This document shows, piece after piece, positions 1,946-18,391 of a DNA stretch of 64,000 nucleotides. Under the pieces are notes generated by a model. It was not told where the DNA came from and searched no databases. It saw only the letters and a program-made list of their open reading frames with translations. How positions within the stretch are numbered: position 1 is the stretch's first letter; every line of letters begins with the position of its first letter. Source of the stretch: Ramlibacter cellulosilyticus (lineage in GTDB: Bacteria > Pseudomonadota > Gammaproteobacteria > Burkholderiales > Burkholderiaceae_C); contig NZ_JACORT010000007.1 of the NCBI RefSeq assembly GCF_014297465.1, positions 124,001 to 188,000 on the forward strand. The letters are read 5' to 3'. The position numbers were made by a program, and so were the translations under genes.

Positions 1946-1993
1946 GCCCGGCGGTCGAAGTTGCGCTTCAGGCGAAGGGGAGGACCGCCGGGC
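1946..1993 (-). promoter_or_regulatory. Leader hairpin D (conserved GCCCGGCGGTC stem)
   Basis: On the minus strand GCCCGGCGGTC pairs perfectly over 11 bases with GACCGCCGGGC across a 26-base loop that starts with CTCCCC. The first stem base directly follows the TGA of leader ORF D, and the hairpin lies 51 bases before the ATG of the beta-solenoid gene. There is no U-tract, so it is not an intrinsic terminator. Four other copies occupy the same position relative to their genes. Confidence 0.7.
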
Positions 1994-2020
1994 TCAGGGA
2001 TGTGCGGGGACACGAGCCAT
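1994..2020 (-). CDS. Leader ORF D, MARVPAHP-stop
   Basis: An eight-codon reading frame, ATG to TGA. The ATG begins 10 bases after a TATACT -10 box, close to the expected transcription start, with no Shine-Dalgarno, so translation would be leaderless. The peptide shares its start (MAR) with leader ORFs B and C, and its end RVPAHP with the RTPAHS ends of B and C. The stop codon touches the base of hairpin D. Too short to be convincing alone; support comes from the five-fold recurrence. Confidence 0.5.
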   Translation of the reverse strand: MARVPAHP

Positions 2021-2030
2021 GGCGGGCGGG

Positions 2031-2036
2031 AGTATA
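2031..2036 (-). promoter_or_regulatory. Promoter D, -10 TATACT
   Basis: TATACT on the minus strand, a good sigma-70 -10 box, with at best TTCGCC as a weak -35 at 17-base spacing. It faces left toward leader ORF D and the beta-solenoid gene. The shared palindrome at 2070-2086 is centred about 54 bases before the predicted start site. A weak -35 plus an upstream palindrome suggests activator dependence. Confidence 0.5.
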
Positions 2037-2069
2037 GGCAACCGCGTCGGGCAGGCGAAACGGCCGCGC

Positions 2070-2086
2070 CATTCTGGCAAGGATCG
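2070..2086. promoter_or_regulatory. Shared operator between promoters D and A (CATTC-N7-GATCG)
   Basis: CATTCTGGCAAGGATCG; its reverse complement CGATCCTTGCCAGAATG matches the sites before promoters B and C (CATCGCCTGCCAGAATG and CATTCCTTGCCAGAATG). The consensus CATTC-N7-GAATG is a dyad. Here one copy sits midway between two divergent promoters of the same class, centred about 54-55 bases from each predicted start. The protein that binds is unknown. Confidence 0.55.
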
Positions 2087-2120
2087 TCGGGTCATCCATG
2101 AGCCAGCGCGGTGCGTGGCC

Positions 2121-2126
2121 TACACT
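2121..2126 (+). promoter_or_regulatory. Promoter A, -10 TACACT
   Basis: TACACT with no recognisable -35 (ATGAGC at 17-base spacing). A GTG codon starts 6 bases downstream at the expected transcription start. It drives leader ORF A, hairpin A, then speDE and gdhA. Confidence 0.45.
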
Positions 2127-2132
2127 ACGCGC

Positions 2133-2228
2133 GTGATTCCATCCCTCCGCCACGCACCCGTGCTGCCGCCGATCGCGGCCGGCATGCTGCTGCCTGCGGA
2201 CCATCGAGGCACGCCAGCAGATTCCTGA
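2133..2228 (+). CDS. Leader ORF A, 31 codons ending GTPADS-stop
   Basis: A GTG-started frame that begins 6 bases after the TACACT box and ends in TGA immediately before hairpin A. Its C-terminus GTPADS matches the RTPAHS of leader ORFs B and C. The body (VIPSLRHAPVLPPIAAG) is proline rich and differs from the others, so only the end of the peptide seems constrained. No Shine-Dalgarno precedes the start. Confidence 0.5.
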   Translation: MIPSLRHAPVLPPIAAGMLLPADHRGTPADS

Positions 2229-2282
2229 GCCCGGCGGTCCCTCCTTCCTTCCCCATTCAGCGCTGACCATCGACCGCCGGGC
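2229..2282 (+). promoter_or_regulatory. Leader hairpin A
   Basis: GCCCGGCGGTC pairs perfectly with GACCGCCGGGC (11 bp). The loop opens with CCTCCTTCCTTCCCC, which contains the anti-Shine-Dalgarno string CCTCCTT. The stem begins at the base after the leader TGA and ends 54 bases before the ATG of speDE. No U-run follows. Confidence 0.7.
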
Positions 2283-2336
2283 AACCGCCCCGCGCATCTG
2301 CGGGCCCCTGCGGCCCGCCAACGATGGAGTGCCCGG

Positions 2337-3614
2337 ATGCAAGGACTGCACCTCACCGCCGACCTGTTCGATTGCCGCTGCCCGCCCGCCCTGCTCACCA
2401 GCGCGGCCTGGCTGGCCGACCTCTGCCGCCATGCCACGCGCGAAGCGGGCCTTACCGTCGTCGGCGAGCACTGGCACAAGTTCCCCTCGTACCAGGGCGA
2501 GCCCGGCGGCGTCACCGGCATGCTGCTGCTGGCCGAATCGCACCTCGCCGTGCACACCTGGCCGGAGCGCGCCGGCGTGACGCTCGACGTCTACGTGTGC
2601 AACTTCAGCGAGGACAACTCGCCCCGCGCGGAAGCGGTGATGTCGGCGCTGCTCGCGGCCTTCGCGCCGGTGCGCGCGCAGCGCGAGCGCATCGACCGCG
2701 CCGCGGGCGACACGCCGCGCGACGCCGAGGCGCTCGTGCTCGAACCCCTGGACGCCGGCAGCGTGTACGGCTTCCGCTTCGACCGCCGGCTGCTTTCGCG
2801 GCACACGCGCTTCCAGCACCTGGAGCTGTTCGAGTCGCCGCAGCTCGGTCGCACCTTGCGCCTCGACGGCCGCTTCATGACCTCGGAAGCCGACGAATTC
2901 TTCTACCACGAGGCGCTCGTCCACCCCGCGGCCATCGCGCATCCCGCGCCCGCGAAGGTCCTGATCCTCGGTGGCGGCGACGGCGGTGCCGCGGAGGAGG
3001 TGCTGAAGCACCCCGCGGTGGAACAGGTGACGCTGGTGGACATCGACGCGGAAGTGGTGGCGGTCGCGCGCGAGCACCTGGCGTCCATCCACCGCGGCGC
3101 GCTCGACGACCCGCGCGTGCGCGTGCTGTGCGAGGACGGTGCCGCGTTCGTGCGCGGCACGCACGAACGCTACGACCTGGTGCTGCTGGACCTCACCGAT
3201 CCCGAGACGCCCGCGGGCCCGCTCTACACGGAACGCTTCCTGCGGCAACTGCGTTCGCTGCTGCGGCATGGCGGGATGGTCGTGCTGCACCTCGGCGCGC
3301 CGTTCCACGAGCAGGAGCAGGTGCGCGGCCTCGCCGCGACGCTGCGCAGCGTCTTCGCGAACGTGGACGCCTTCGGCCTGCACGTGCCGCTGTACGGGGC
3401 GTACTGGGGGTTCGCCATCGCCTCGCAGCACGCCCGGCCGGCGCAACTGGATGCGGCCGCCGTCGGCGCCCGGCTCGACGCCCGGGGCATCGCCGACCTG
3501 CGTTTCTACAATGCGCAGGTGCACGGCGCCCTGTTCGCCTTGCCCACCTACTTCGCCGAACTCGTCCGCGAGCCGGCGTTTCCACCCACGCATCCGCTCC
3601 TGCAACCCGCATGA
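2337..3614 (+). CDS. Bifunctional S-adenosylmethionine decarboxylase / spermidine synthase (SpeD-SpeE fusion)
   Basis: A 425-residue fusion. Residues 1-115 are a class 1b AdoMet decarboxylase: ESHLAVHTWPE carries the Glu67-Ser68 self-cleavage site that yields the pyruvoyl group, His73 follows, and Cys88 sits in VYVCNF. Residues 135-425 are spermidine synthase: ELFESPQLGRTLRLDG, the AdoMet-binding GGGDGG at 212-217, the VDID acidic loop near 234 and the catalytic DLTDP near 285. Together they convert AdoMet and putrescine to spermidine in the cytosol. The ATG has GGAG 9 bases upstream and lies 54 bases after hairpin A. Its TGA overlaps the ATG of gdhA. SpeD and SpeE are usually separate proteins, though fusions are known. 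Confidence 0.93.
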   Translation: MQGLHLTADLFDCRCPPALLTSAAWLADLCRHATREAGLTVVGEHWHKFPSYQGEPGGVTGMLLLAESHLAVHTWPERAGVTLDVYVCNFSEDNSPRAEAVMSALLAAFAPVRAQRERIDRAAGDTPRDAEALVLEPLDAGSVYGFRFDRRLLSRHTRFQHLELFESPQLGRTLRLDGRFMTSEADEFFYHEALVHPAAIAHPAPAKVLILGGGDGGAAEEVLKHPAVEQVTLVDIDAEVVAVAREHLASIHRGALDDPRVRVLCEDGAAFVRGTHERYDLVLLDLTDPETPAGPLYTERFLRQLRSLLRHGGMVVLHLGAPFHEQEQVRGLAATLRSVFANVDAFGLHVPLYGAYWGFAIASQHARPAQLDAAAVGARLDARGIADLRFYNAQVHGALFALPTYFAELVREPAFPPTHPLLQPA

Positions 3615-4954
3615 AATACAAGACCAGCACCGAGTTCCTGGCCCAGGTGGCCGCCCGCAACCCCGGGCAGCCCGAGTATGTCCAGGCCGTGACCGAGGTG
3701 ATCGACAGCCTCTGGCCGTTCATCTCGGAACATCCGCGCTATGCGGAGCACGGCCTGCTCGACCGCCTCGTCGAAGCCGAGCGGATCATCCAGTTCCGCG
3801 TGTGCTGGGTCGACGACCAGGGGCAGGTGCAGGTCAACCGCGGCTACCGCGTGCAGCACAGTTCGGCCATCGGGCCGTACAAGGGCGGCATGCGCTTCCA
3901 CCCCTCGGTGAGCCCCTCGATCCTGAAGTTCCTCGCCTTCGAGCAGACCCTCAAGAACGCGCTCACCACGCTGCCCATGGGCGGCGGCAAGGGCGGCTCG
4001 GACTTCGATCCGAAGGGGCGCAGCCCCGGCGAAGTGATGCGCTTCTGCCAGGCGTTCATGACGGAGCTGTTCCGCCACATCGGCGGCGACACCGACGTGC
4101 CCGCGGGTGACATCGGCGTGGGCGCGCGCGAGGTCGGCTACATGGCCGGCATGATGAAGAAGCTGAGCAACCGCGCCGACTGCGTGTTCACCGGCAAGGG
4201 CCTGTCGTTCGGCGGCTCGCTGATGCGCCCCGAAGCCACCGGCTACGGCACCGTGTACTTCGCGCAGGAGATGCTGCGCCGCGCCGGCAAGTCGCTCGAA
4301 GGCATGCGCGTGACGGTCTCCGGCTCCGGCAACGTGGCGCAGTACGCCGTGGAAAAGGCGATGGCGCTCGGCGCGAAGGTGGTGAGCGTCTCCGACTCCA
4401 GCGGCACGGTGCACGACGCGCAGGGCTTCACCCCCGCCAAGCTCGCGGAACTGATGGAGGTGAAGAACCACCTGTACGGGCGCGTGAGCGACTACGCGCA
4501 GCGCACGGGGGCGGAGTTCCTGCCCGGACGCAACCCCTGGAAGATCCCGGCCGACGTCGCCCTGCCCTGCGCCACGCAGAACGAGCTGGACGAGCAGGAC
4601 GCGCGCACGCTGGTCGCCAACGGCGTGCAATGCGTGGCCGAAGGCGCCAACATGCCCGCGACGCTGGCGGCCGTGCACGTCCTCGAGGAAGCGCGCGTGC
4701 TGTACGCGCCGGGCAAGGCGAGCAACGCCGGCGGCGTGGCCACCTCCGGCCTGGAGATGAGCCAGAACGCGATGCGCCTTTCCTGGCCGCGCGAGGAAGT
4801 GGACGCGCGCCTGCTCACCATCATGCAGGGCATCCACGCGGCGTGCGTGCAGCATGGCGCGCGCCCCGACGGCACCGTCAGCTACGTGCGGGGCGCCAAC
4901 ATCGCGGGCTTCGTCAAGGTGGCCGACGCGATGATCGCGCAAGGCATCATCTAG
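3611..4954 (+). CDS. gdhA: NADP-specific glutamate dehydrogenase
   Basis: A 447-residue hexameric-type glutamate dehydrogenase of normal length that makes glutamate from 2-oxoglutarate and ammonia. The substrate domain contains GPYKGGMRFHPSV and the catalytic lysine region LPMGGGKGGSDFDP; PAGDIGVGAREVGYM is the family signature. The coenzyme domain has the Rossmann motif SGSGNVAQYA near residue 237, and AEGANMPAT and SNAGGVATSGLEMSQNA follow. The start overlaps the speDE stop in ATGA, so glutamate and polyamine synthesis are translationally coupled. The 3' end overlaps the convergent rnk-like gene by 8 bases, with no terminator between them. Confidence 0.96.
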   Translation: MKYKTSTEFLAQVAARNPGQPEYVQAVTEVIDSLWPFISEHPRYAEHGLLDRLVEAERIIQFRVCWVDDQGQVQVNRGYRVQHSSAIGPYKGGMRFHPSVSPSILKFLAFEQTLKNALTTLPMGGGKGGSDFDPKGRSPGEVMRFCQAFMTELFRHIGGDTDVPAGDIGVGAREVGYMAGMMKKLSNRADCVFTGKGLSFGGSLMRPEATGYGTVYFAQEMLRRAGKSLEGMRVTVSGSGNVAQYAVEKAMALGAKVVSVSDSSGTVHDAQGFTPAKLAELMEVKNHLYGRVSDYAQRTGAEFLPGRNPWKIPADVALPCATQNELDEQDARTLVANGVQCVAEGANMPATLAAVHVLEEARVLYAPGKASNAGGVATSGLEMSQNAMRLSWPREEVDARLLTIMQGIHAACVQHGARPDGTVSYVRGANIAGFVKVADAMIAQGII

Positions 4955-5372
4955 TCGCCTCGTCCGGGCCCTTCGCCGGCAACGGCGCGAGCACCGCCAC
5001 GATGCGGGCGGCGTGCACGCGCCCGAACGAACGCCAGGTAGCCGTCTCGCCCGTGCTGCGTCCCAGCAGCGCGGAGCCGAGCGGCGACAGCACCGAGACG
5101 CGGCCGCGGGCCGGGTCCGCATCGGGCGGAAGCACCAGCGTGATCCGGCAGAACTGCTCCTGCGGGCCGGCGACGAGGAAGACCTGTGCGTCCAGCGTCA
5201 CGAGCCCCGGTGCCACCGCGCCCGCGGGCGCGAGGCGGCTCTCGTCGAGGGCACGCCGGATGTCCTCCTTGCCGGCGTGCGCCGTGCCCTCTTCCGCGAG
5301 CAGGCGCGTCAGGTGGGCGAGGTCGTGGGGGGTGAGGGTGCGCGCGGGCGCGCGCGGTGCCAGGGTCTGCAT
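4947..5372 (-). CDS. Rnk/GreA-C-terminal family protein 1
   Basis: About 141 residues. The C-terminal half has the GreA/GreB C-terminal-domain signature VSVLSPLGSALLGRSTGE followed by W, as in Rnk-type regulators of nucleoside diphosphate kinase that bind RNA polymerase through this FKBP-like domain. The N-terminal 45 residues (LTPHDLAHLTRLLAEEG) are a short helical region instead of the long GreA coiled coil, so it is not a transcript-cleavage factor. I chose the ATG at 5372 because upstream in-frame codons run through hairpin E. Promoter E and leader ORF E precede it. Two paralogues lie at 14685 and 16078. Confidence 0.78.
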   Translation of the reverse strand: MQTLAPRAPARTLTPHDLAHLTRLLAEEGTAHAGKEDIRRALDESRLAPAGAVAPGLVTLDAQVFLVAGPQEQFCRITLVLPPDADPARGRVSVLSPLGSALLGRSTGETATWRSFGRVHAARIVAVLAPLPAKGPDEATR

Positions 5373-5444
5373 GAACACACTCCAGTTGCGGATCGGCGCC
5401 GGCGCGACGGGCGCGCGCAGGCGGAGCGGGTGGGCGCTTGGAGT

Positions 5445-5487
5445 GCCCGGCGATTCGTTGCGCGTTCGGACGTGGGGATCGCCGGGC
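5445..5487 (-). promoter_or_regulatory. Leader hairpin E (covarying stem)
   Basis: GCCCGGCGAT pairs with ATCGCCGGGC over 10 bases on the minus strand. Compared with copies A, B and D the ninth pair is A-T instead of G-C, with both sides changed, which is compensatory evidence for pairing. The loop is 23 bases and starts CCCC. It begins at the base after the leader TGA and ends 72 bases before the rnk-like ATG. Confidence 0.7.
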
Positions 5488-5517
5488 TCAGGAAAGTGCT
5501 GCGGTTCGTTTCGGCAC
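5488..5517 (-). CDS. Leader ORF E, nine codons ending RTAALS-stop
   Basis: A GTG-started frame 6 bases after a TAGACT -10 box, reading VPKRTAALS and ending in TGA next to hairpin E. The end RTAALS is the most diverged version of the RTPAHS ending, and the GTG has no ribosome-binding site. Accepted because position, stop placement and hairpin are as in the other four copies. Confidence 0.42.
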   Translation of the reverse strand: MPKRTAALS

Positions 5518-5523
5518 GCACGC

Positions 5524-5552
5524 AGTCTAGGCTGTGCCTGCGCGTGCGCCAA
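5524..5552 (-). promoter_or_regulatory. Promoter E, TTGGCG-N17-TAGACT
   Basis: The minus strand has TTGGCG, a 17-base spacer and TAGACT. Unlike promoters A-C it has a reasonable -35, and the palindrome at 5563-5589 lies further upstream, so it may depend less on an activator. It faces leader ORF E and the rnk-like gene. Confidence 0.5.
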
Positions 5553-5562
5553 GCGTCGCGCC

Positions 5563-5589
5563 AATGCCCCTGCATCGCCTGCCAGAATG
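5563..5589. promoter_or_regulatory. Shared operator between promoters E and B
   Basis: Two overlapping dyads: ATGC-CCCT-GCAT (5564-5575) and CATCG-CCTGCCA-GAATG (5573-5589). The same pair occurs at 14374-14400. The GAATG end is 27 bases before the TATACT of promoter B, exactly as for promoter C, placing the second dyad centre near -48. Confidence 0.55.
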
Positions 5590-5616
5590 CGCCGCGCCAC
5601 GGTCACGCGCATTTCC

Positions 5617-5622
5617 TATACT
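5617..5622 (+). promoter_or_regulatory. Promoter B, -10 TATACT
   Basis: TATACT with a poor -35 (GCGCCA). The ATG of leader ORF B begins 6 bases later at 5629, the expected start of transcription. Gene spacing suggests it serves the ten-gene usp-usp-mrp-usp operon that ends at 14353. Confidence 0.5.
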
Positions 5623-5628
5623 CGGGCC

Positions 5629-5715
5629 ATGGCACGCCACCCGTCCATGCATCCGATCGCACCCGACTGCGCACGCGCGCAGGCGTGGTTGCAGCGCACG
5701 CCTGCACATTCCTGA
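5629..5715 (+). CDS. Leader ORF B, 28 codons ending RTPAHS-stop
   Basis: An ATG-to-TGA frame starting at the predicted transcription start. It begins MARHPSMHPIAP and ends in RTPAHS, the same six residues that end leader ORF C although the middle parts differ in sequence and length. The TGA directly precedes hairpin B. There is no Shine-Dalgarno, so leaderless initiation is expected. Confidence 0.55.
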   Translation: MARHPSMHPIAPDCARAQAWLQRTPAHS

Positions 5716-5766
5716 GCCCGGCGGTCGCCTCCTTCTCTCCAGGCGCCAAACCTCGAACCGCCGGGC
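5716..5766 (+). promoter_or_regulatory. Leader hairpin B
   Basis: GCCCGGCGGT pairs with ACCGCCGGGC (10 bp). The loop starts CGCCTCCTTCTCTCC and includes CCTCCTT, complementary to a strong Shine-Dalgarno. The downstream gene has AGGAAGGA about 30 bases further on, so pairing between loop and ribosome-binding site is possible. No U-tract. Confidence 0.7.
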
Positions 5767-5803
5767 CGACGCCCGGCGCCGTTCCCGCCAGGAAGGACAG
5801 GAC

Positions 5804-6562
5804 ATGAACGACCCCTCCCGCGCACCGCTGCCCCGGCTCCGCCGCGTGCTGGTGCTGCACGACCTGCATCCCGATGCCGACAACGCCGCATGGCGCGGCG
5901 CCCTCGTCGTGCGGCCGCACGACGGCTGGATGCGCCTGCTGCACGTGAGCAGGCTGCGCGATCCCGGAAGCGCGCGCGAGCGGCTGGCACCGCTCGCATG
6001 GCGCGTGCAGGAGCACCTGCAGCTCGGCGTGCTCACGCACGCCTTCCGCGGCTCGCTCTCCGGCGAGCTGAAGCGCGCAGCCGAGGATGCCGACCTCGTG
6101 GTGATGCGCGCTGCCTCGGGCTTCGATGCGGCCACCGGGCTGCACCCGCTGCGCGTCGCGCAACTCGCCAACCGGCCGACGCTCGTCGTGCGCACGCCGG
6201 CCACCGTGCCGTACCGCCGCATCCTCGTGGGCGCGCTGCACGAAAGCGACGACGGCCGCGCGCTCGCCACCGCTTCCGCCATGACCGACGGCCGCGAAGC
6301 GCCCGCCACGGCGCTGCTGCAGTCCGCGGCGGCACTGCTGGAGCGCGAGCGCACGCTGCTGCCCGACGTGGTCGCGGTGCCCTGCGCGCGCCAGCCCTCG
6401 CTGGCCCGCCGCTTCCTCGCGCTCACGCGCGCCGACACGCTGCTGCTGCCATCGCCGTTGCCGGGGCCCGACGAGGTCACCGCGGGCCTCGCCGGCGGTG
6501 CGCTCGCGCCCGGGCTGCTGCTGTCGCAGCGTGACTTGCCGCTCGCAGGGGAGAACGCATGA
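5804..6562 (+). CDS. Diverged tandem universal stress protein
   Basis: A 252-residue protein with two UspA-like halves. The first runs from RRVLVLHDLHPDADNAAWRG to NRPTLVVRTP (about residue 127), the second opens with YRRILVGALHESDDG. The usual ATP-loop G-x2-G-x9-G(S/T) is missing from both halves, so nucleotide binding is doubtful and a regulatory or partner role is likelier. The start has a strong AGGAAGGA site and follows hairpin B by 37 bases. The stop overlaps the ATG of the next usp gene in ATGA. Confidence 0.8.
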   Translation: MNDPSRAPLPRLRRVLVLHDLHPDADNAAWRGALVVRPHDGWMRLLHVSRLRDPGSARERLAPLAWRVQEHLQLGVLTHAFRGSLSGELKRAAEDADLVVMRAASGFDAATGLHPLRVAQLANRPTLVVRTPATVPYRRILVGALHESDDGRALATASAMTDGREAPATALLQSAAALLERERTLLPDVVAVPCARQPSLARRFLALTRADTLLLPSPLPGPDEVTAGLAGGALAPGLLLSQRDLPLAGENA

Positions 6563-7479
6563 CGGCCAGCGGCGACTGCGGCCTGCCGCCGCGGCACATC
6601 CTGGTGGCGACGGACCTCGGGCTGGCGGCACGCAACGCCACGTGGCGCGCCGCGCAGCTCGCGCGCGCGCACGGCGCCACGCTGCGCCTGCTGCACGTGC
6701 CCGGCGAGCCGCGCGAAGCCGAGGCCGCGCGCACCGCGCTCGCGCAGCTGGCCGAAGCCGTGCAGCTGCGGCTGGGCGTGGCCGCGGACGTGGAGGTCGC
6801 GCGCGGCGACCCCGCGCGCGAGACCTCCCGCGCCGCGCTGGCGGCCGACCTGCTCGTGGTCCCCGCGCGCGAAGGCAGCAGCATGCGCGAACGCATCGCG
6901 GGCACCACGACCGAACGGCTCGTGCGGGCGAGCCGCATTCCCGTGCTCGTCGTCAAGCGGCCGCTCGCGCGCTCCCGCGACCGCACCGATCTCGCGCCGC
7001 CGCCCAAGGACCTCTACGACCGCGTGCTCGCCTGCGTCGACCTCGGGCCCGGATCGGCGGACGTGATCACGGCCGCGACCTGCCTTTCCGCCGATCCGCG
7101 CATGGAGGTCTTCCACGTGGTCGCCCCCGAGAAGCAGGGCGCGCGCGCCGAGGCGGCGGGCACCGGCACGGCCGTGGAGCGCGCGCGGGCGGCGCTGCGG
7201 GAACGCATGGCACAGGCAGGCCCCGCCGCGGACGCACGCGCCGCGGTCGGTTTCGGGCACGCAGGCGCATCCGTCGTCGCGAAGGAACGCGCGGTGGGTG
7301 CCGACCTCATCGTGCTCGGCCGGCGCGAGCGCCGCCTGCTGGGGGACTGGTTCCTGGGCACCGTCACGCGCGAGGTGCTGTCCGGATCGCGCTGCGACGT
7401 GCTGCTGGTGCCGCCACGGCCGCGTTCTTTCGCGGCAGAAAGCGCGGCGGCCACGCCGGACACCTCCGCCGTCGGCTAG
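6559..7479 (+). CDS. Tandem universal stress protein (UspA family)
   Basis: A 306-residue cytosolic protein with two Usp domains, about residues 13-138 and 152-295. Domain 1 begins RHILVATDLGLAARNATW and ends PVLVVKRP; domain 2 begins YDRVLACVDLGPGSADV and ends CDVLLVPPRP. The loop GRREERR-type segment before GTVTREVL in domain 2 approximates the ATP-binding G-x2-G-x9-G(S/T), with the second glycine replaced. The gene overlaps the preceding usp by 4 bases and stops 9 bases before mnhA, so it belongs to the antiporter operon. USPs act in survival of starvation, hypoxia or membrane stress. Confidence 0.9.
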   Translation: MTASGDCGLPPRHILVATDLGLAARNATWRAAQLARAHGATLRLLHVPGEPREAEAARTALAQLAEAVQLRLGVAADVEVARGDPARETSRAALAADLLVVPAREGSSMRERIAGTTTERLVRASRIPVLVVKRPLARSRDRTDLAPPPKDLYDRVLACVDLGPGSADVITAATCLSADPRMEVFHVVAPEKQGARAEAAGTGTAVERARAALRERMAQAGPAADARAAVGFGHAGASVVAKERAVGADLIVLGRRERRLLGDWFLGTVTREVLSGSRCDVLLVPPRPRSFAAESAAATPDTSAVG

Positions 7480-7488
7480 AGTCGGTCC

Positions 7489-10365
7489 ATGCCGCTCTGG
7501 TGGATCGTCCTGCTGCCTTTCGCGGCGAGCCTGCTCGCGGCGGTCCTGCCCACGCGCGCGCGCAACTGGGAGTCGCTGCTCGCCGGCGGCGTGGCGCTCG
7601 CGGTCGCGGGCGGGCTCGCCTCCCTGCACCCGCGCATCGCCGGCGGCGAAGTGCTGCAGGACACCATCTCCTGGCTCCCGTCACTGGGCGTCGACCTGGT
7701 GCTGCGCATCGACGGCTTCGCCTGGATGTTCGGCATGCTGGTGAGCGTGATCGGCGCGCTGGTCGTGCTCTATGCGCGCTACTACCTCTCGGCCGACGAT
7801 CCCGCCGCGCGCTTCTATGCGCTGCTCCTCGGGTTCATGGGTGCCATGCTGGGCGTCGTGCTCTCCGGCAACATCGTGCAGCTGGTGGTGTTCTGGGAGC
7901 TGACCAGCCTCTTCTCCTTCCTGCTGATCGGGTACTGGCACGACCGCAAGGACGCGCGGCGCGGCGCGCGCATGGCGTTCGTGGTCACGGCCTCGGGCGG
8001 GCTCGCGCTGCTCGCGGGCGTGCTGCTGCTGGGGCACGTTGCCGGCAGCTACGAACTCGGCGCCGTGCTGGCCGCGGGCGACAAGGTCAAGGCGGACCCG
8101 CTGTACGTGCCCATCGTGGTGCTCGTGCTGCTCGGCACGCTCACCAAGAGCGCGCAGTTCCCCTTCCACTTCTGGCTGCCGCATGCGATGGCCGCGCCCA
8201 CGCCGGTGTCGGCCTACCTGCACTCGGCGACCATGGTGAAGGCGGGCGTGTTCCTGATGGCGCGGCTGTGGCCGGTGCTCGCCGGTACCGACACCTGGCT
8301 GCTGCTCGTGGGCGGCGCCGGCCTGCTGACGCTGCTGCTCGGCGCCTATCTCGCGATCTTCCAGCAGGACCTGAAGGCGGTGCTCGCGTACTCCACGATC
8401 AGCCACCTGGGCCTCATCACGCTGCTGCTGGGGCTGGGCAGCCCGCTCGCCGCGGTGGCGGCGGTGTTCCACACGATGAACCACGCCACCTTCAAGGCCT
8501 CGCTCTTCATGGCGGTGGGCATCATTGACCACGAGACCGGCACGCGCGACATGCGCCGGCTGCACGGGCTCTACCGCTACATGCCGCACACGGCAAGGCT
8601 CGCGATCATCGCAAGCGCGGCGATGGCGGGCGTGCCGCTGCTGAACGGCTTCCTGTCCAAGGAGATGTTCTTCGCGGAGACGGTGCTGCTGCAGTCGTCC
8701 CCCGTGGTGCAGTGGCTGCTGCCGGTGGCCGCCACGGTGTACGGCGTGCTCGCCGTGGTGTATTCGCTGCGCATCGGGCACCACGTGTTCTTCGGGCCGC
8801 CGCCGGGCGACACGCCGCGCGTGGCGCACGAGCCGGTGCGCTGGATGCGCGCACCGATCGAGATCCTGGTGCTCGCCTGCGTCGTCGTCGGCGTGCTCCC
8901 GGAAGCGGCGGTCGGCGACTTGCTGGCGACCGCGGCCGCGCCGGTGGTGGGCGGCACGCTGCCGGAATACAGCCTCGCGCTGTGGCATGGCTTCAATGCG
9001 CCGATGATCATGAGCCTCGTGGCGCTGGCGGGCGGCGTCGCCGCCTACCTCGTGTTCGCGCGCCTGCGCAGCGAAGGCTGGCTCGAAAGGGCGCCGCTGC
9101 TCGCGCGCACCGATGGCCGCCGCGCCTTCGAATGGCTGCTGGCCGCCGGCACGGACCTCGCGCGGCGCACGGTGCGGCGCACGAGCAGCCGGCACCTGCA
9201 GCGGCAACTGCTCTGGATGGTGGTGGCGGCCGGCAGCACGGCGCTGGCCGCGGCCATCGTGGTGCCCCTCGAATGGGGTTCGCGCCCGCGCGTGCCGGTG
9301 ACGATCGACTTCGTGCTGCTGTGGCTGGTCGGCGGCGCGGCCGCCATCGGCGCCGCCTGGCAGGCGCGGTTCCACCGTCTCTACTCGCTGGTGCTCCTCG
9401 GCGTCACCGGCGTCGTGCTGTGCGTGACCTTCGCGTGGTTCTCCGCCCCCGACCTCGCGCTGACGCAGATCGCGGTCGAATCGGTCACGCTGGTGTTCTT
9501 CCTCCTCGGCCTGCGCTGGCTGCCGAAGCCGCTGGGGAGCGACGAAGTCGAGGGCGTGGCCTGGCGCTCGCTCTGGCGGCGCAGCCGCGACCTGCTGCTG
9601 TCGGTGCTCGCGGGCGCAGGGCTGGCCGCGGTGTCGTACGCGCTCCTCACGCGCACGGGCGCGCAAAGCATCTCGCCTTTCTACCTGGCGAACGCGCTGC
9701 CCGGCGGCGGCGGGCACAACGTCGTGAACGTGATGCTCGTGGACTTCCGCGCGTTCGACACGCTGGGGGAGATCACCGTGCTCGGGATCGTGGGGCTGAG
9801 CGTGTACGCGCTGCTGCGCCGCTTCCGCCCGCCGCGCGAACTCACCGAGGTGCCGCCGCAGCAGCGCCTCGCGCAGCACCAGGCCACCGAGGAACAGGAA
9901 GACCCCGTGCGCGCCTCCCTCGTCGTCCCAGCCGTGCTCGCGCGGCTCATGCTGCCGGTGACGCTGGTCGTGGCCGCCTACCTGTTCCTGCGTGGCCACA
10001 ACCTGCCGGGCGGCGGCTTCGTCGCGGGGTTGACGGTCACCATCGCCTTCGTCGCGCAGTACATGGTGGGCGGCACCCGCTGGTTGGAGGCGCGGCTGGA
10101 CGTGAACCCGCGCGCCTGGATCGCGCTGGGCCTGCTCGGCGCCCTGGCCACCGGGCTCGGCTCGCTCGCGCTCGGCTATCCGCTGCTCACCACGCACACG
10201 GCGCACTTCGCGCTGCCCGTGCTCGGCGAGGTGCACCTGCCCAGCGCGCTCTTCTTCGACCTCGGCGTCTTCCTCGTCGTGCTCGGCTCCACCATGCTCC
10301 TGCTCACCGCTCTCGCCCACCAGTCCGGCCGCGCGCGCCGCCGCCCCTCCGGAGGGAGCGCCTGA
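7489..10365 (+). CDS. mnhA: Mrp/Mnh Na+(K+)/H+ antiporter subunit A with fused subunit-B domain
   Basis: A 958-residue inner-membrane protein related to complex I NuoL. The N-terminal proton-channel domain has FWELTSLFSFLLIGYW and the classic LPHAMAAPTPVSAYLHSATM region with the lysine of MVKAGVF. The middle carries the MrpA C-terminal extension. The last 130 residues (from about 815, LMLPVTLVVAAYLFLRGHN then LPGGGFVAGL) form an MrpB domain, so A and B are fused as in group-2 Mrp/Pha systems. No separate mnhB follows. The complex exchanges cytosolic Na+ or K+ for protons, for pH and salt homeostasis. The TGA overlaps the mnhC ATG. Confidence 0.95.
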   Translation: MPLWWIVLLPFAASLLAAVLPTRARNWESLLAGGVALAVAGGLASLHPRIAGGEVLQDTISWLPSLGVDLVLRIDGFAWMFGMLVSVIGALVVLYARYYLSADDPAARFYALLLGFMGAMLGVVLSGNIVQLVVFWELTSLFSFLLIGYWHDRKDARRGARMAFVVTASGGLALLAGVLLLGHVAGSYELGAVLAAGDKVKADPLYVPIVVLVLLGTLTKSAQFPFHFWLPHAMAAPTPVSAYLHSATMVKAGVFLMARLWPVLAGTDTWLLLVGGAGLLTLLLGAYLAIFQQDLKAVLAYSTISHLGLITLLLGLGSPLAAVAAVFHTMNHATFKASLFMAVGIIDHETGTRDMRRLHGLYRYMPHTARLAIIASAAMAGVPLLNGFLSKEMFFAETVLLQSSPVVQWLLPVAATVYGVLAVVYSLRIGHHVFFGPPPGDTPRVAHEPVRWMRAPIEILVLACVVVGVLPEAAVGDLLATAAAPVVGGTLPEYSLALWHGFNAPMIMSLVALAGGVAAYLVFARLRSEGWLERAPLLARTDGRRAFEWLLAAGTDLARRTVRRTSSRHLQRQLLWMVVAAGSTALAAAIVVPLEWGSRPRVPVTIDFVLLWLVGGAAAIGAAWQARFHRLYSLVLLGVTGVVLCVTFAWFSAPDLALTQIAVESVTLVFFLLGLRWLPKPLGSDEVEGVAWRSLWRRSRDLLLSVLAGAGLAAVSYALLTRTGAQSISPFYLANALPGGGGHNVVNVMLVDFRAFDTLGEITVLGIVGLSVYALLRRFRPPRELTEVPPQQRLAQHQATEEQEDPVRASLVVPAVLARLMLPVTLVVAAYLFLRGHNLPGGGFVAGLTVTIAFVAQYMVGGTRWLEARLDVNPRAWIALGLLGALATGLGSLALGYPLLTTHTAHFALPVLGEVHLPSALFFDLGVFLVVLGSTMLLLTALAHQSGRARRRPSGGSA

Positions 10366-10709
10366 TGGAAGCCGTGATCGCGATCGCCATCGGCGTATTG
10401 ACGGCGGCTGGCGTGTGGCTGGTGCTGCGGCCGCGGACTTTCCAGGTGCTCGTGGGCCTGTCGCTGCTCTCGTACGCGACCAACCTGTTCATCTTCAGCG
10501 TGGGCAGCCTGTCCATCGCGCGCGAGCCCATCGTGCAGCCCGGGGTCACGCCAGACCTCGTGCAGTACACCGACCCGTTGCCGCAGTCGCTGGTGCTCAC
10601 CGCGATCGTGATCGGGTTCGCGACCACGGCCTTGTTCCTCGTCGTGCTGCTCGCCCTGCGCGGGCTGACGGACAGCGACCACGTCGACGGCGAGGAGGAG
10701 CGGCCTTGA
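10365..10709 (+). CDS. mnhC: Mrp/Mnh antiporter subunit C
   Basis: A 114-residue NuoK-like membrane protein with three predicted helices (residues 3-22, 28-50 and 75-100). VLVGLSLLSYATNLFIFSVG and DPLPQSLVLTAIVIGFATTA match MnhC/MrpC; the TAIVIGFA helix is the family hallmark. The ATG shares one base with the mnhA stop, and the TGA overlaps the TTG of mnhD, so stoichiometric translation is likely. Length is normal. Confidence 0.93.
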   Translation: MEAVIAIAIGVLTAAGVWLVLRPRTFQVLVGLSLLSYATNLFIFSVGSLSIAREPIVQPGVTPDLVQYTDPLPQSLVLTAIVIGFATTALFLVVLLALRGLTDSDHVDGEEERP

Positions 10710-12346
10710 GTCCGGGCCCGCACCTGCTTGCTGCGCCCGTGTTGCTGCCGCTGGCGACCGCGGCCGTCCTGCTCGCCGTCGGCGAACGCTGGCGCGGTGC
10801 GAAGGCGGCGCTGAGCCTGGCCTCGCTGCTTGCGAGCCTGGTGCTCGCCTGCGGCCTGCTCGCGTGGGCGCAGGGCGCCGCGGTCCCCGCGGTGTACTTG
10901 CCAGGCAACTGGCCGGTGCCTTTCGGCATCGTGCTCGTCCTCGACGGGCTCTCCGCCGGCATGCTGGTGCTCGCTGCATCCACGGCCCTGGCAGGCCTGC
11001 TCTTCTCCCTCGCGCGCTGGCACCGCGCGGGCGTGCACTTCCACCCGCTGCTGCAACTGCAGCTGGCGGGACTGAACGGCGCCTTCCTCACGGGCGACCT
11101 GTTCAACCTGTTCGTCTTCTTCGAGGTGCTGCTCGCGGCCTCCTACGCCCTGCTGCTGCACGGCGGCGGGACCAGCCGCGTGCGTCCGGGCCTGCACTAC
11201 ATCGCGGTGAACCTGGTCGCGTCCTTCCTGTTCCTGATGGGCGTGGCCTTGCTCTACGGCGTGACCGGCACGCTGAACATGGCCGACATCGCCCGCAAGC
11301 TGCCGCTCGTGCCGCTGGAGGACCGCGGGCTGCTGCACGCGGCGGCGGCCCTGCTGGCCGTGGCCTTCCTCGCGAAGGCGGGGTTCTGGCCGCTGAACTT
11401 CTGGTTGCCCCGCGCCTATGCGGCGGCCAGCGCGCCGTCGGCGGCCGTGTTCACGACGCTGACCAAGGTCGGCGTGTACGCGGTGCTGCGGCTGTGGACG
11501 CTGTGCTTTCCCACCAGCGCCGATTTCTCCGCGCATTTCGGCGGCGGCCTGCTGGTGTGGGGCGGGCTGGCGACGCTTGCCTTCGGCGCCATCGGCATGC
11601 TGCGCTCGCAGCAGCTCGGGCGCGTTGCGGGCTACAGCATCATCTCTTCCTCGGGCACCGTCGTCGCGGCGGCGGGGCTCGACACGCCGGCGCTCACGGC
11701 GGGAGCGCTCGTCTACCTCGCGAGTTCCACGCTCGGCGCCGCCGCCCTCTTCCTGCTGGCGGAACTCGTGGAGCGCAGGCGCCAGGCGGAAGTGGACCCG
11801 CCGCGCGCGGACACGGGCGGCCGCCTGCCGCGCTTCGGCGAGGCCTCGCCGATCGACGCCAACCTCGACGACCGCCAGGTGCCGCTGGTGGGCCGAGCGA
11901 TCCCCGCATCGCTGGCGCTGCTCGCCACCGCCTTCCTCCTGTGCACGCTGGTGGTCGCCGGCATGCCGCCCTTGTCCGGCTTCGTCGGCAAGCTCGCGAT
12001 GCTGCGCGCCATCACCGAGGCCCGCTTCGCACCGGCCCCGCAGTTCGCCGCCTGGCTGCTGTTCGCGCTGCTGATCTTCTCCAGCTTCACCGGCAGCGTC
12101 GCGCTGCTGCGCGCCTTCTCCACGCATTTCTGGGCCTCGTACCAGCGCACGCCCGCGACCCTGCGCATCGCCGAGATGCTGCCGGTGGGCCTGCTGCTGG
12201 CGGCCTGCATCGCGCTGGCGGCCGGCGGCGAGCGCGTCCTCGCGTTCACCGCGGGCGTCGCGGCCGCGCTGCATGCGCCCGACCGCTACGTGCAGACCGT
12301 GTTCGAGGCGCAACCCGTGCCCTCCCCGACCGGGAGCAGGCCGTGA
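10706..12346 (+). CDS. mnhD: Mrp/Mnh antiporter subunit D
   Basis: A 546-residue NuoN/M-like proton-channel subunit. LFNLFVFFEVLLAASYALLL carries the conserved membrane glutamate and FLAKAGFWPLNFWLPRAYAA the conserved lysine and LP motif. I place the start at the TTG at 10706 because it overlaps the mnhC stop (TTGA) and gives the normal N-terminus; no ATG is suitably placed. A hydrophilic stretch of about 45 residues near 355-400 (ERRRQAEVDPPRADTGG) is a cytosolic loop. The stop overlaps the GTG of mnhE. Confidence 0.93.
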   Translation: MSPGPHLLAAPVLLPLATAAVLLAVGERWRGAKAALSLASLLASLVLACGLLAWAQGAAVPAVYLPGNWPVPFGIVLVLDGLSAGMLVLAASTALAGLLFSLARWHRAGVHFHPLLQLQLAGLNGAFLTGDLFNLFVFFEVLLAASYALLLHGGGTSRVRPGLHYIAVNLVASFLFLMGVALLYGVTGTLNMADIARKLPLVPLEDRGLLHAAAALLAVAFLAKAGFWPLNFWLPRAYAAASAPSAAVFTTLTKVGVYAVLRLWTLCFPTSADFSAHFGGGLLVWGGLATLAFGAIGMLRSQQLGRVAGYSIISSSGTVVAAAGLDTPALTAGALVYLASSTLGAAALFLLAELVERRRQAEVDPPRADTGGRLPRFGEASPIDANLDDRQVPLVGRAIPASLALLATAFLLCTLVVAGMPPLSGFVGKLAMLRAITEARFAPAPQFAAWLLFALLIFSSFTGSVALLRAFSTHFWASYQRTPATLRIAEMLPVGLLLAACIALAAGGERVLAFTAGVAAALHAPDRYVQTVFEAQPVPSPTGSRP

Positions 12347-12831
12347 GGCGCTGGTTCCCGTCGCTGCCGCTGTCCGCCGGGCTGCTGGCGCTGTGGCTGC
12401 TGCTGAACGACTCGGTCGCACCCGCGGACCTGCTGCTCGGGGCGATCCTCGCGTTCCTCGCGCCCCTCGTGGCGGCGCCGCTGAAGCCGGCCGGCCCGCG
12501 CCTGCGCAAGCCGCTCGTGCTCGCGCGCCTGGTGCTGCGCGTGGGCCGCGACGTCGTCGTCTCGGCGCTGGAAGTCGCCGCGGGGGTGCTGCGCGCCGGC
12601 AGGCACGCCCCGCGCGGGCGCTTCGTGGACGTGCCCCTGGACCTGCACGACCCGCACGGCCTGGCGGCGCTCGCCATCATCACGGCGGTGGTGCCCGGCA
12701 CGGTGTGGTGCGACCTGGCCGCCGACCGCAGCCACCTCCTGATCCACGTGTTCGACCTCGAGGACGAGGACGCCTTCATCGCGATGTACAAGCAGCGCTA
12801 CGAACTGCCGCTCAAGGAGATCTTCGGATGA
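12343..12831 (+). CDS. mnhE: Mrp/Mnh antiporter subunit E
   Basis: A 162-residue subunit with two N-terminal hydrophobic segments (SLPLSAGLLALWLLLNDSV, then LLLGAILAFLAPLVAAPL) and a soluble C-terminal part containing LAIITAVVPGTVWCDLAADR, the most conserved MnhE region. The GTG start lies inside the mnhD stop (GTGA). MnhE is needed for assembly of the complex in several bacteria. Length is typical. Confidence 0.92.
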   Translation: MRRWFPSLPLSAGLLALWLLLNDSVAPADLLLGAILAFLAPLVAAPLKPAGPRLRKPLVLARLVLRVGRDVVVSALEVAAGVLRAGRHAPRGRFVDVPLDLHDPHGLAALAIITAVVPGTVWCDLAADRSHLLIHVFDLEDEDAFIAMYKQRYELPLKEIFG

Positions 12832-13103
12832 CCCTGCTCGATGGCGCCATCACGGCGACGCTGGTGCTGTACTGCCTGGCGATGATCGTGGGCCTCGCCC
12901 GCCTGTTCCGGGGGCCGCGCGCGCAGGACCGAGTGGTCGCGTTCGACTTCGTGTTCACCGTGGCCCTGCTCGCCGTGCTGGTGCTCGCCATCCGCTACGA
13001 CAGCAGCATGTACTTCGACGCGGCGCTGCTGATGGCGGTGTTCGGCTTCCTCGGGTCCGCGGCCCTCGGCAAGTTCCTGCTGCGCGGGGAGGTGATCGAA
13101 TGA
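12828..13103 (+). CDS. mnhF: Mrp/Mnh antiporter subunit F
   Basis: A 91-residue membrane protein with three helices. LARLFRGPRAQDRVVAFDF is the MnhF signature with the conserved GPxxxDRV motif, followed by VLVLAIRYDSSMYFDAALLMA. It overlaps mnhE and mnhG by 4 bases each (ATGA). Usual length is 85-95 residues. Confidence 0.92.
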   Translation: MTLLDGAITATLVLYCLAMIVGLARLFRGPRAQDRVVAFDFVFTVALLAVLVLAIRYDSSMYFDAALLMAVFGFLGSAALGKFLLRGEVIE

Positions 13104-13444
13104 TCGTGCAGGTGCTCGTCGCGCTGCTGCTGCTCGCGAGCGGCGCGCTGGTGCTCACCGCGGCGCTGGGCCTGTGGCGGCTGGAGGACTTCTTCCTGCG
13201 CATGCACGCGCCGGCGCTGGCCAACACGCTCGCGAGCTGGGCGGTCGCGCTCGCGTCCATCGTGTACTTCACCGCGGGCACCGGCCGGCTCGCGCTGCAC
13301 CAGTGGGTGATCGTGGTGGTGCTGTGCATCACGGTGCCGATCACCACCGCGGTGGTGGCGCGGGCCGCGCTGTTCCGCACGAGGGTGGAGCGCATGCTGA
13401 CGAAGGCGGCCGACGCGACGCGCGGCGATCCACCCCCGTCCTAG
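13100..13444 (+). CDS. mnhG: Mrp/Mnh antiporter subunit G
   Basis: A 114-residue membrane protein and the last subunit of the complex. GLWRLEDFFLRMHAPALANTL is the MnhG signature (usually 'RMHAPTKAxTLG'), here with ALANTLAS; three membrane helices follow the normal pattern. It overlaps mnhF by 4 bases. A usp gene follows after 27 bases, so the operon continues. Confidence 0.92.
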   Translation: MIVQVLVALLLLASGALVLTAALGLWRLEDFFLRMHAPALANTLASWAVALASIVYFTAGTGRLALHQWVIVVVLCITVPITTAVVARAALFRTRVERMLTKAADATRGDPPPS

Positions 13445-13471
13445 AATGAACTTCGCTTCGAGGAGCCGACG

Positions 13472-14353
13472 ATGAACGCACTGCAGCGGCTGCTGGCCGC
13501 CACGGACCTCTCCGCTCCCGCGCGGCATGCGGTCGAACGCGCCGCCCTGGTGGCACGCGCCACCGGCGCGCGGCTCGACCTGGTGCACGTCGCGGCCTAC
13601 TCCCGCGTCGACGAACTGCGCCGCCTCGTCGCGGGCCTGCCCGAAGACGTCGCGTCGCGCATGCGCGAGCAGACGCAGATGCTGGTGGACGCGCTCGCGG
13701 CCGTCGTGCGCGAACGCCATGGCGTGGAAGCCGCGACGCACGTGGCCACCGGACCGCTGCTGCAGGCCATCGACGCTGCCGCCGCCGCCGTCGACGCCGA
13801 CCTGCTCGTGCTGGGCGCCCGCGGCAGCAGCATGCTGCGCCACCTGGTCCTCGGTTCCACCGCGGCGCGCCTCATCGACGTGTGCACGCGGCCGCTGCTC
13901 GTGGTGAAGCGCCCGGCGGTCGCCGAGTACCGCTGCGTGCTGGTGCCCGTGGATTTCTCCGAGGCTTCGCTGCCCGCCCTGCGGCTCGCGCGGGCCGTGG
14001 CGCCGCGCGCGCGGCTCGTGCCCATGCACGCCTACGAAGCGCCCTTCGAAGGCAAGCTGCGCGTCGCGAGCGTGGAGGAGCGCTACCTCGAGGAGTACCG
14101 CGAGCAGGCACGCGTCGAGGCGGAAGCGAAGATGGCGTCGCTGTGCGACGAGGCGGGCCTGCGGGAAGGCACGTACCCGATGGTCGTGCACGGCTCCGCG
14201 CCCGAACGCATCCTGGCCCTCGAAGACGACGAGGACTGCGACCTCGTCGTCATGGGGCGGCAGGGACAGAGCCGCGTCGAGGACCTGCTCCTGGGCAGCG
14301 TCAGCCGGCGCGTGCTGGCCGAAGCCGAGGCCGACGTCCTCGTGCTTCCCTGA
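13472..14353 (+). CDS. Tandem universal stress protein with two intact ATP loops
   Basis: A 293-residue protein with two complete Usp domains. GARGSSMLRHLVLGST and GRQGQSRVEDLLLGSV both fit the ATP-binding consensus G-x2-G-x9-G(S/T), in contrast to the other three USPs in this region. The domain starts are QRLLAATDLSAPARHAVERA and YRCVLVPVDFSEASLPALRL. A GAGGAG ribosome-binding site precedes the ATG, 27 bases after mnhG; no promoter is visible between them, so it is probably the last gene of the operon from promoter B. Confidence 0.92.
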   Translation: MNALQRLLAATDLSAPARHAVERAALVARATGARLDLVHVAAYSRVDELRRLVAGLPEDVASRMREQTQMLVDALAAVVRERHGVEAATHVATGPLLQAIDAAAAAVDADLLVLGARGSSMLRHLVLGSTAARLIDVCTRPLLVVKRPAVAEYRCVLVPVDFSEASLPALRLARAVAPRARLVPMHAYEAPFEGKLRVASVEERYLEEYREQARVEAEAKMASLCDEAGLREGTYPMVVHGSAPERILALEDDEDCDLVVMGRQGQSRVEDLLLGSVSRRVLAEAEADVLVLP

Positions 14354-14373
14354 GGAGTGCACGCGCCGCGCGC

Positions 14374-14400
14374 AATGCCCTTGCATTCCTTGCCAGAATG
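14374..14400. promoter_or_regulatory. Operator C: overlapping palindromes
   Basis: AATGC-CCTT-GCATT (14374-14387) overlaps CATTC-CTTGCCA-GAATG (14384-14400); both dyads are perfect here, the best copy in the window. The right edge is 27 bases from the -10 of promoter C, the same as for promoter B. Confidence 0.6.
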
Positions 14401-14427
14401 GATTCGCCGCTTTCCGGTACCTCGGCC

Positions 14428-14433
14428 TATACT
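14428..14433 (+). promoter_or_regulatory. Promoter C, -10 TATACT
   Basis: TATACT with no good -35 (CGCCGC at 17-base spacing). The ATG of leader ORF C starts 7 bases downstream. The promoter would serve the five-gene set from 14685 to 17202. Confidence 0.5.
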
Positions 14434-14440
14434 CTTGCGC

Positions 14441-14566
14441 ATGGCACGTTTTCCCACGTCGCATCCCACCGCTTCCGCCGCGCTGCTCCGTGCCGCACGC
14501 GGCGTGCGGGCGCTCGCGACCACGCCTGTGCAGGCGGGTCCGCGGCGAACGCCCGCACATTCCTAG
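14441..14566 (+). CDS. Leader ORF C, 41 codons ending RTPAHS-stop
   Basis: An ATG-to-TAG frame at the predicted transcription start, beginning MARFPTSHP and ending RTPAHS. Start and end match leader ORF B (MARHPSMHP ... RTPAHS) while the middle (LLRAARGVRALATTPVQAG) is different. It uses TAG instead of TGA but keeps the stop in contact with the hairpin. No Shine-Dalgarno. Confidence 0.55.
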   Translation: MARFPTSHPTASAALLRAARGVRALATTPVQAGPRRTPAHS

Positions 14567-14618
14567 GCCCGGCGGCCGCCCTTCCTCCCTTCTAGCGCCA
14601 TTCCATCGACCGCCGGGC
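14567..14618 (+). promoter_or_regulatory. Leader hairpin C
   Basis: GCCCGGCGG pairs with CCGCCGGGC; a C-A mismatch and one more C-G pair extend it. The loop starts GCCCTTCCTCCCTTC, again pyrimidine rich. It ends 66 bases before the ATG of the rnk-like gene, whose TGGAGTGCCC leader is also found before speDE. No U-run. Confidence 0.68.
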
Positions 14619-14684
14619 TCACACCCGGCGTGTCCGCGAACCGAGCCTTCGTGCCCGGCCCTTCGCTTTTCGATTGGAGTGCCC

Positions 14685-18297: not shown

Positions 18298-18391
18298 TGA
18301 ACGCAGAGGTCGCAAAGGTGACGCAGAGGTCGCAGAGGAATCCTGGATGTTCTCTGCGACCTCTGCGCTTCCTCTGCGCCCTCTGCGTTCA
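18298..18391. repeat. 94-bp inverted-repeat element, copy 1
   Basis: Starts TGAACGCAGAGGTCGCAAAG and ends CGCCCTCTGCGTTCA. The arms (GAACGCAGAGG... and ...CCTCTGCGTTC) are complementary over most of their length, with internal repeats of GCAGAGGTCGCAGAGG, so it can form one long hairpin. A second copy in the same orientation is at 22076-22169 and differs at only about three positions. Elements of this CTCTGCG type are widespread small non-coding repeats in proteobacteria. Confidence 0.85.

Follow-up and report, generated by a model that had tools for sequence, protein, structure and literature searches.

In attenuators of the trp and his type, a leader peptide is encoded ahead of the controlled gene and the position of the ribosome on it selects between mutually exclusive RNA structures; such classical attenuators respond to specific codons or to the nascent peptide. 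Polycysteine leaderless short open reading frames (ORFs) reportedly attenuate downstream genes in mycobacteria, going by the title of a 2020 report by Canestrari. A ribosome-mediated attenuator with a leader peptide, ilvB-II of Corynebacterium, is described in passages of PMC10272879. In Sinorhizobium meliloti, the trpL message starts with the ATG of the leader ORF and attenuates the downstream gene, and leaderless initiation is reported as favoured under stress in Escherichia coli (passages of PMC7298713). In Salmonella, translating the short ORF mgtQ changes which of the alternative stem-loops forms and raises translation of the following gene (abstract and headings of PMC8092293). Here we analysed a stretch of 64,000 nucleotides (nt) of Ramlibacter cellulosilyticus (contig NZ_JACORT010000007.1, positions 124,001 to 188,000; the window), which carries five copies of a leader element made up of a promoter, a predicted leaderless mini-ORF and a hairpin, P1, that opens at the base after the stop codon. 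We read the element, with moderate confidence, as a cis-acting ribosome-sensing leader, in which a ribosome terminating on the leaderless mini-ORF would melt P1.

The layout had been proposed in a preliminary description of the window, and when it was re-derived from the sequence it proved exact to the base. The five copies, E1 to E5, share one order: a -10 box (TANACT), 6–10 nt, ATG or GTG, an open frame of 8–41 codons, a stop codon and the stem. The base directly 3' of the stop is the first base of the stem in all five, the stop being TGA in four copies and TAG in E5. The arms of P1 are about 11 nt long, with some inner pairs not formed and one mismatch in E5, and the stem lies 51, 54, 72, 37 and 66 nt from the main gene in E1 to E5, respectively. 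The parts are as follows.

2036-2031, minus strand: E1 -10 box TATACT, 10 nt before the ATG at 2020
1994..2020, minus strand: E1 mini-ORF, predicted leaderless, 8 codons (MARVPAHP and stop), TGA at 1996-1994
1946..1993, minus strand: E1 stem-loop P1, 5' arm from 1993
2121..2126, plus strand: E2 -10 box TACACT, 6 nt before the GTG at 2133
2133..2228, plus strand: E2 mini-ORF, 31 codons, GTG start, TGA at 2226-2228
2229..2282, plus strand: E2 stem-loop P1, from 2229
5529-5524, minus strand: E3 -10 box TAGACT, 6 nt before the GTG at 5517
5488..5517, minus strand: E3 mini-ORF, 9 codons, GTG start, TGA at 5490-5488
5445..5487, minus strand: E3 stem-loop P1, from 5487
5617..5622, plus strand: E4 -10 box TATACT, 6 nt before the ATG at 5629
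5629..5715, plus strand: E4 mini-ORF, 28 codons, ending TPAHS and stop, TGA at 5713-5715
5716..5766, plus strand: E4 stem-loop P1, from 5716
14428..14433, plus strand: E5 -10 box TATACT, 7 nt before the ATG at 14441
14441..14566, plus strand: E5 mini-ORF, 41 codons, ending TPAHS and stop, TAG at 14564-14566
14567..14618, plus strand: E5 stem-loop P1, from 14567, one mismatch

Compared with shuffled sequences, the stems folded with z scores of -4.2, -2.7, -3.1, -3.4 and -1.7 for E1 to E5; the E5 stem was not clearly better than its shuffles, 13 of 200 being equally good. By itself, the octamer GCCCGGCG shows no excess in the window (36 observed, 31 expected), and the signal therefore lies in the arrangement.

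Covariance models were built from the five window copies (R1) and from 65 matches (R2), the E-values of both being rough. A pool of 240 entries, which took in 60 of the 73 stretches found by a pattern scan of a named genome collection (the other 13 were judged already present via the genus search), came to 209 distinct copies after repeats identical over 120 bases were dropped. The remaining copies share descent, and thinned sets of 170 copies for layout counts and 135 targets for counts at the Shine-Dalgarno sequence (SD) were used alongside. Four weak places unlike the element (L044, L045, L046 and L062) were excluded, three family-search places, one each in G289, G214 and G346, stand outside the pool, and denominators of 208 and 207 omit one and two copies with short upstream sequence. 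The covariance search of Burkholderiales relatives that the preliminary description had called for returned 209 distinct copies, in most of which the layout recurs.

The stop codon abuts the stem in 191 of the 209 copies (154/170 in the thinned set). It is TGA in 161, TAG in 19 and TAA in 11; that any of the three can stand there is what one would expect if selection acted on a stop rather than on a sequence. A box TANNNT followed after 5–10 nt by an ATG or GTG that is in frame with this stop and open was present in 181/208 copies, compared with 6 and 1 for the other two frames (thinned set 145/170, again with 6 and 1); with a longer range and looser boxes, the in-frame start was found in 193/207 and the other frames gave 27 and 22. 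Spacing from box to start was 6–7 nt in 160 of the 181. At the -35 position of these 181 promoters TTG is enriched with a 17-nt spacer (T 0.48, T 0.50, G 0.62), the -10 box having been chosen without regard to a -35 element. Among 1363 other GC-rich hairpins of the window and the 73 named loci, none had the full layout and 19 had an abutting stop. The layout is not chance. We consider it very unlikely that it is inherited promoter-proximal sequence whose ORF has no regulatory role: shared descent does leave the copies non-independent, but the frame and stop outlast the peptide across genera and other families, and the control hairpins gave 0/1363. A translated leader is the sole reading we found that would explain the in-frame start and stop, the three stop codons and the loss of the peptide together.

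That loss is apparent in the mini-ORFs themselves, which run from 8 to 49 codons (the ceiling of the search; a wider search added two, of 51 and 56). Amino-acid conservation is small beyond the last residues, where changes in the last codons are non-synonymous, and no peptide-level conservation was seen beyond this tail. Relative to the other frames, the pooled leaders are richer in A, L and T and poorer in R and P (A 0.20, R 0.13, L 0.09 and P 0.09), and no amino acid strongly stands out from those frames. The kept frame and the GC content by codon position (0.70/0.68/0.78) could suggest a functional small protein, but the variable length and the paucity of conservation outside an end whose changes are non-synonymous make this highly improbable. 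The same drift bears on a stall at the stop, which had been put forward earlier: a stall caused by a specific peptide is unsupported, the peptide not being conserved, and nascent-peptide stalling is unlikely. The tail codon GCA keeps its wobble A in 161/170 copies, which points to a role of the tail as RNA.

The P1 stem covaries. In 103 aligned copies, 96.9% of cells are paired and 41 double changes were counted compared with 7.8 in shuffles (0/500), in an alignment that was fitted to the stem and thereby favours this result. Two diverged copies missed by the model, L260 and L261, have compensated stems of their own right after the stop, as judged by eye. The loop is pyrimidine-rich (C 0.51 and T 0.33 in its first part), and a GCGC motif at its end and a second one downstream are present in 172/191 and 171/191 copies. 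Among 28 variants, compensated loop/downstream pairs occur in the single lineages L041, L199, L222 and L226, and some variants are uncompensated; these lineages suggest a pseudoknot, P2. A swap test showed no overall signal (native 13.49, swapped 13.50), and the pseudoknot is therefore not claimed. The 3' arm of P1 can instead pair downstream to form an alternative hairpin, P1', which is a perfect 8 bp in E4.

5742..5780, plus strand: E4 possible pseudoknot P2, suggested between GGCGCC 5742-5747 and GGCGCC 5775-5780
5759..5778, plus strand: E4 alternative hairpin P1', CGCCGGGC 5759-5766 with GCCCGGCG 5771-5778; excludes P1, no T-run after it

P1' was more than 1 kcal/mol better than in shuffles in 116/191 copies and worse in 43. 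When 143 leaders were folded without the bases up to k+10 (k being the first stem base), the 3' arm paired more often with the bases that separate the stem from the SD (predicted pairing up from 0.15 to 0.65), and the SD with the loop (from 0.11 to 0.52). In L207, P1' has the form CGCCGGGC-TCGCA-CCCGGCG, that is CGCCGGGCTCGCACCCGGCG, followed by TTTCTTTTTT, and was flagged by a terminator scanner; L211, L213 and L217 share this hairpin, each with a T-rich tail behind it. In this four-copy clade P1' looks like an intrinsic terminator, with P1 as a classical antiterminator. In L207, L211 and L217 the mini-ORF seems to begin just past the stop of an upstream frame.

The element resembles ribosome-mediated attenuators (trp/his, and ilvB-II as far as the cited passages describe it) in that a short ORF of variable length is always in frame, the ribosome's position would choose between exclusive RNA structures and, among the L207 group of copies, P1 and a terminator-like hairpin exclude each other. 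Unlike in those systems, it is the stop rather than control codons that lies at the stem, no amino acid stands out in the pooled leaders, most copies are without a U-tract, and one module stands before several unrelated genes. A leaderless leader ORF is predicted at the 5' end as in S. meliloti trpL, but in the passages on trpL the ORF has Trp codons and serves trpE(G), whereas the present leaders have no fixed peptide and stand before GreA/Rnk-like and stress genes. The mycobacterial ORFs are reportedly leaderless as well, but Cys tracts are theirs, by the title, and Cys is not enriched here (0.034 in frame 0 compared with 0.059 and 0.051 in the other frames). No described element of this structure had been recognised previously, and this stands: Rfam 15 gave no match in the window at the gathering score and none at the element in five loci at E <= 1, and a literature search found no description, the listed Burkholderiales-1 motif not being compared by structure. 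That motif, from the same order as the element, is known here by its listing as a candidate RNA without Rfam number in a table of PMC2864571. A survey of candidate RNAs and upstream ORFs that covered 50 genomes (PMC11109978) has none of the terms variovorax, burkholderia, comamonad and rnk in its passages. We regard the element as a variant of ribosome-mediated attenuation that serves several genes and is new, save for the uncompared Burkholderiales-1 motif.

When a stop codon occupies the A site, the ribosome covers roughly the next 10 nt of the message. This approximates the length of the 5' arm, and translation of the leader to its stop should therefore melt P1. In the mechanism that we propose, transcription from a sigma-70-type promoter would begin on the first base of the mini-ORF or on a neighbouring one, as predicted from the box spacing, and the mini-ORF would be translated as a leaderless message with the peptide as a by-product; selection would act on the start, the open frame and the stop at the foot of P1. 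The ribosome at the stop would pull almost the whole 5' arm into its entry channel, P1 would melt, and the 3' arm would be free to pair downstream as P1'. Since P1' looks like a terminator in one clade, melted P1 would mean off there: the gene would be off when the leader is translated to the stop and on when it is untranslated. The other copies would have the same sign as default, with P1' or the exposed leader RNA acting on SD access or on Rho, and the likely use would be to make more GreA/Rnk-like and stress proteins when leader translation is poor. Translation-coupled control, as proposed in the preliminary description, fits the in-frame start and stop and a 5' arm that extends about 11 nt from the stop, as suits a terminating ribosome; its sign and level we infer. 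We put the repressive sign of leader translation at a little better than even, and hold leader translation as the input with more confidence.

The start codon, the reading frame and the place of the stop persist across many genera although the peptide changes, which suggests that the element senses translation itself. As a tentative extension, it could be a peptide-independent sensor of leaderless translation, which would read the start of a ribosome on a 5'-terminal AUG and its arrival at the stop via melting of the stem, and would set the level of a GreA/Rnk-like protein along with the expression of genes for stress, polyamine and beta-solenoid proteins. The predicted leaderless start links the element to the initiation mode favoured under stress.

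Several observations weigh against the ribosome-sensing leader. Contact between stop and stem, found in all five window copies and 191/209 of the pool, is not invariant: 18/209 copies are without it, so that the loss of contact in homologues, which the preliminary description had named as a ground for refutation, occurs in part. The in-frame start is kept in 15 of these 18 (looser rule), which counts in favour of the leader; the frame ends 9–36 nt past the contact point, into the stem-loop, in 14 and at 90 nt in one, and the tail GCAC[AT]T[TC]CC is in place in most. L032:1068 and L236 have an in-frame stop at 9 and 24 nt with no start found, and in L055:2846 the frame is broken. The shared denominator may be a ribosome entering the 5' arm rather than contact as such. 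In the pool, no start was found by the looser rule in 14/207 copies. P1' with a T-run is present in only 4/191 copies, all of the single L207 clade, and any T-rich stretch at that place in 8/191. None of the five window copies is among these T-rich cases, and no terminator-like site was found at 1900-2400 of the window. The terminator clade (L207, L211, L213 and L217) is itself without the leaderless promoter box. Mean predicted SD access was equal in both states at 0.218, rising in 44 and falling in 38 of 143 leaders, and a general Shine-Dalgarno switch was rejected on this ground. Finally, complementarity between the mini-ORF end and the target SD would imply the opposite sign, and TGC follows the SD in 53 of 135 thinned targets compared with 21 of 346 control genes.

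2326..2332, plus strand: E2 target SD GGAGTGC, partial complementarity to the mini-ORF end
14676..14682, plus strand: E5 target SD GGAGTGC

This complementarity raises an alternative of positive coupling, in which the tail (GCAC[AU]U[UC]CC) would pair with and close the target SD (GGAGUGC/GGAAUGC), and a ribosome held at the stop by P1 would free the SD and turn the gene on. The conserved tail, including the wobble A of GCA, and the TGC after the SD are consistent with it, and the tail binds its own SDs more strongly than control SDs (-8.5 and -7.4 kcal/mol), a preference that the loop and another leader segment lack; GGAGTGC also precedes target genes of other families (window E2, L064 and L030). 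Against this, own tail/SD pairs were no better than swapped ones (native mean -8.50, swapped -8.53), tail base 4 varied independently of the SD (Fisher p = 1), the mean predicted pairing of tail and SD within the full leader was 0.09, and the similarity of the SDs may reflect shared descent. The pairing was thus rejected as a covarying helix and retained only as a rival, which we consider unlikely though deserving of weight. The likeness to mgtQ, as far as its abstract and headings go, applies to this alternative; mgtQ differs in being intergenic and in having acidic codons that destabilise the ribosome, and a stem abutting the stop is not mentioned in those parts. Pairing between the loop and the SD was also tried and rejected: it beats shuffled loops (-9.5 compared with -8.4) but is not specific for the own SD (own -10.0, control -10.6).

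To return to the ribosome-sensing leader and its prevalence, the R1 search of the 5.5-Mb Ramlibacter genome found six clear copies, five of them in the window. The sixth, L014 on another contig (E 2e-7), has TACACT, 7 nt, ATG, 38 codons, an abutting TAG and an imperfect stem, and the product of the next gene looks USP-like, resembling that of E4. Three other R1 places in the genome had E > 0.4, one of them being the reverse strand of E1. Of pattern matches elsewhere in the genome, L001 and L004 were inspected and rejected, both looking like chance within coding sequence. In the genus, R1 matched in 30/59 genomes at E <= 0.01, a few weak matches being set aside, and in the family R2 matched in 90/299 genomes at E <= 1e-4, covering 53/126 genera. 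An order-wide draw gave R2 matches in 13/399 genomes, seven of them outside the family, and a class-wide draw in 2/276, both inside it. The eight copies outside the family, in seven genomes, include five with the full layout, one of these with the stop overlapping the first stem base. The 73 stretches of the pattern scan came from Ramlibacter, Variovorax, Hydrogenophaga, Aquabacterium, Rhizobacter, Roseateles, Piscinibacter, Acidovorax, Curvibacter, Malikia, Xenophilus and other genera, the named ones of which we take to be Burkholderiales, and in part from metagenome bins labelled Pseudomonadota or Proteobacteria. Clusters like that of the window were seen in two further Ramlibacter genomes: G022 (L048) has five copies in about 8 kb, and G012 (L055) has four in about 12 kb.

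The target genes in the window are the following.

1031..1894, minus strand: E1 target, 287-residue beta-solenoid-like protein; scores for FapA and bactofilin are under the respective cut-offs
2337..3614, plus strand: E2 target, fused AdoMet decarboxylase and spermidine synthase, 425 residues
4947..5372, minus strand: E3 target, GreA/Rnk-like, 141 residues
5804..6562, plus strand: E4 target, USP-like (Pfam Usp 23.0 bits, cut-off 24), upstream of USP and Mrp antiporter genes
14685..15086, plus strand: E5 target, GreA/Rnk-like, 133 residues

Among 206 called downstream proteins of the pool, 155 match the GreA/Rnk-like profile; a further 15 are similar to the beta-solenoid-like protein encoded after E1 and 13 to the USP-like protein encoded after E4, and the E2 protein itself accounts for one. 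In the pool, 3/209 copies have no called downstream gene, and the gene caller was wrong in some, as at E1, where the true gene is 1031-1894. The seven called genes downstream of copies outside the family resemble, by eye, the GreA/Rnk-like and beta-solenoid-like families. Both GreA/Rnk-like proteins encoded in the window have a GreA/GreB C-terminal domain match and fall below the NCBIfam Rnk equivalog cut-off (79.5 and 57.3 compared with 109 bits), and the GreA/Rnk-like target gave a sequence match to 3bmb (E 3.7e-15). The seven closest homologues in a protein search of 40 genomes, L257-L263, all have the element upstream: L257 is E5, L258, L259, L262 and L263 lie behind family-search places, and L260 and L261 have the diverged copies. 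Element searches over 40 genomes ran with stricter filters and missed those two, so that absence of a match there is weak evidence. No element was seen by eye upstream of the more distant Rnk-type genes L264-L268 and L270. At two of these, L267 and L268, there is a different upstream hairpin, GCCCGG...CCCGGGC and then TTTT, which looks like a terminator.

The predominance of GreA/Rnk-like genes (155/206), together with the retention of the loop and downstream GCGC motifs, would be compatible with a structured part that binds a protein, for example in autoregulation by the GreA/Rnk-like product, leader translation being a secondary input. We regard this as quite improbable, as the element also stands before unrelated genes and the in-frame start and stop would be left unexplained. 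If the element is a ribosome-sensing leader, the unrelated genes behind it would form a regulon that senses translation, in bacteria of soil and water, several of which exist as named strains. The single regulon proposed earlier holds insofar as several unrelated genes carry the element and an upstream motif is shared in Ramlibacter; its commonest target is the GreA/Rnk-like gene, not the USPs. The motif, GCCAGAAT or its complement, was found upstream of 33/54 Ramlibacter copies, compared with 6/127 copies of other genera and 0/209 control stretches. In the window, TGCCAGAATG lies upstream of the -10 boxes at 2070-2079 (minus strand), 5580-5589 (plus) and 14390-14400 (plus), that is, once within each divergent promoter pair (E1/E2 and E3/E4) and once ahead of E5, and is a candidate regulator site of Ramlibacter.

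14390..14400, plus strand: E5 upstream motif TTGCCAGAATG, possible regulator site common to most Ramlibacter copies

Further downstream from the AdoMet decarboxylase/spermidine synthase fusion, ORF 2324-4954 contains a glutamate dehydrogenase domain in a different frame. Two pairs of similar stop-plus-hairpin sequences, at 18322/22100 and 41540/41768 of the window, are unlike the element and are probably repeats.

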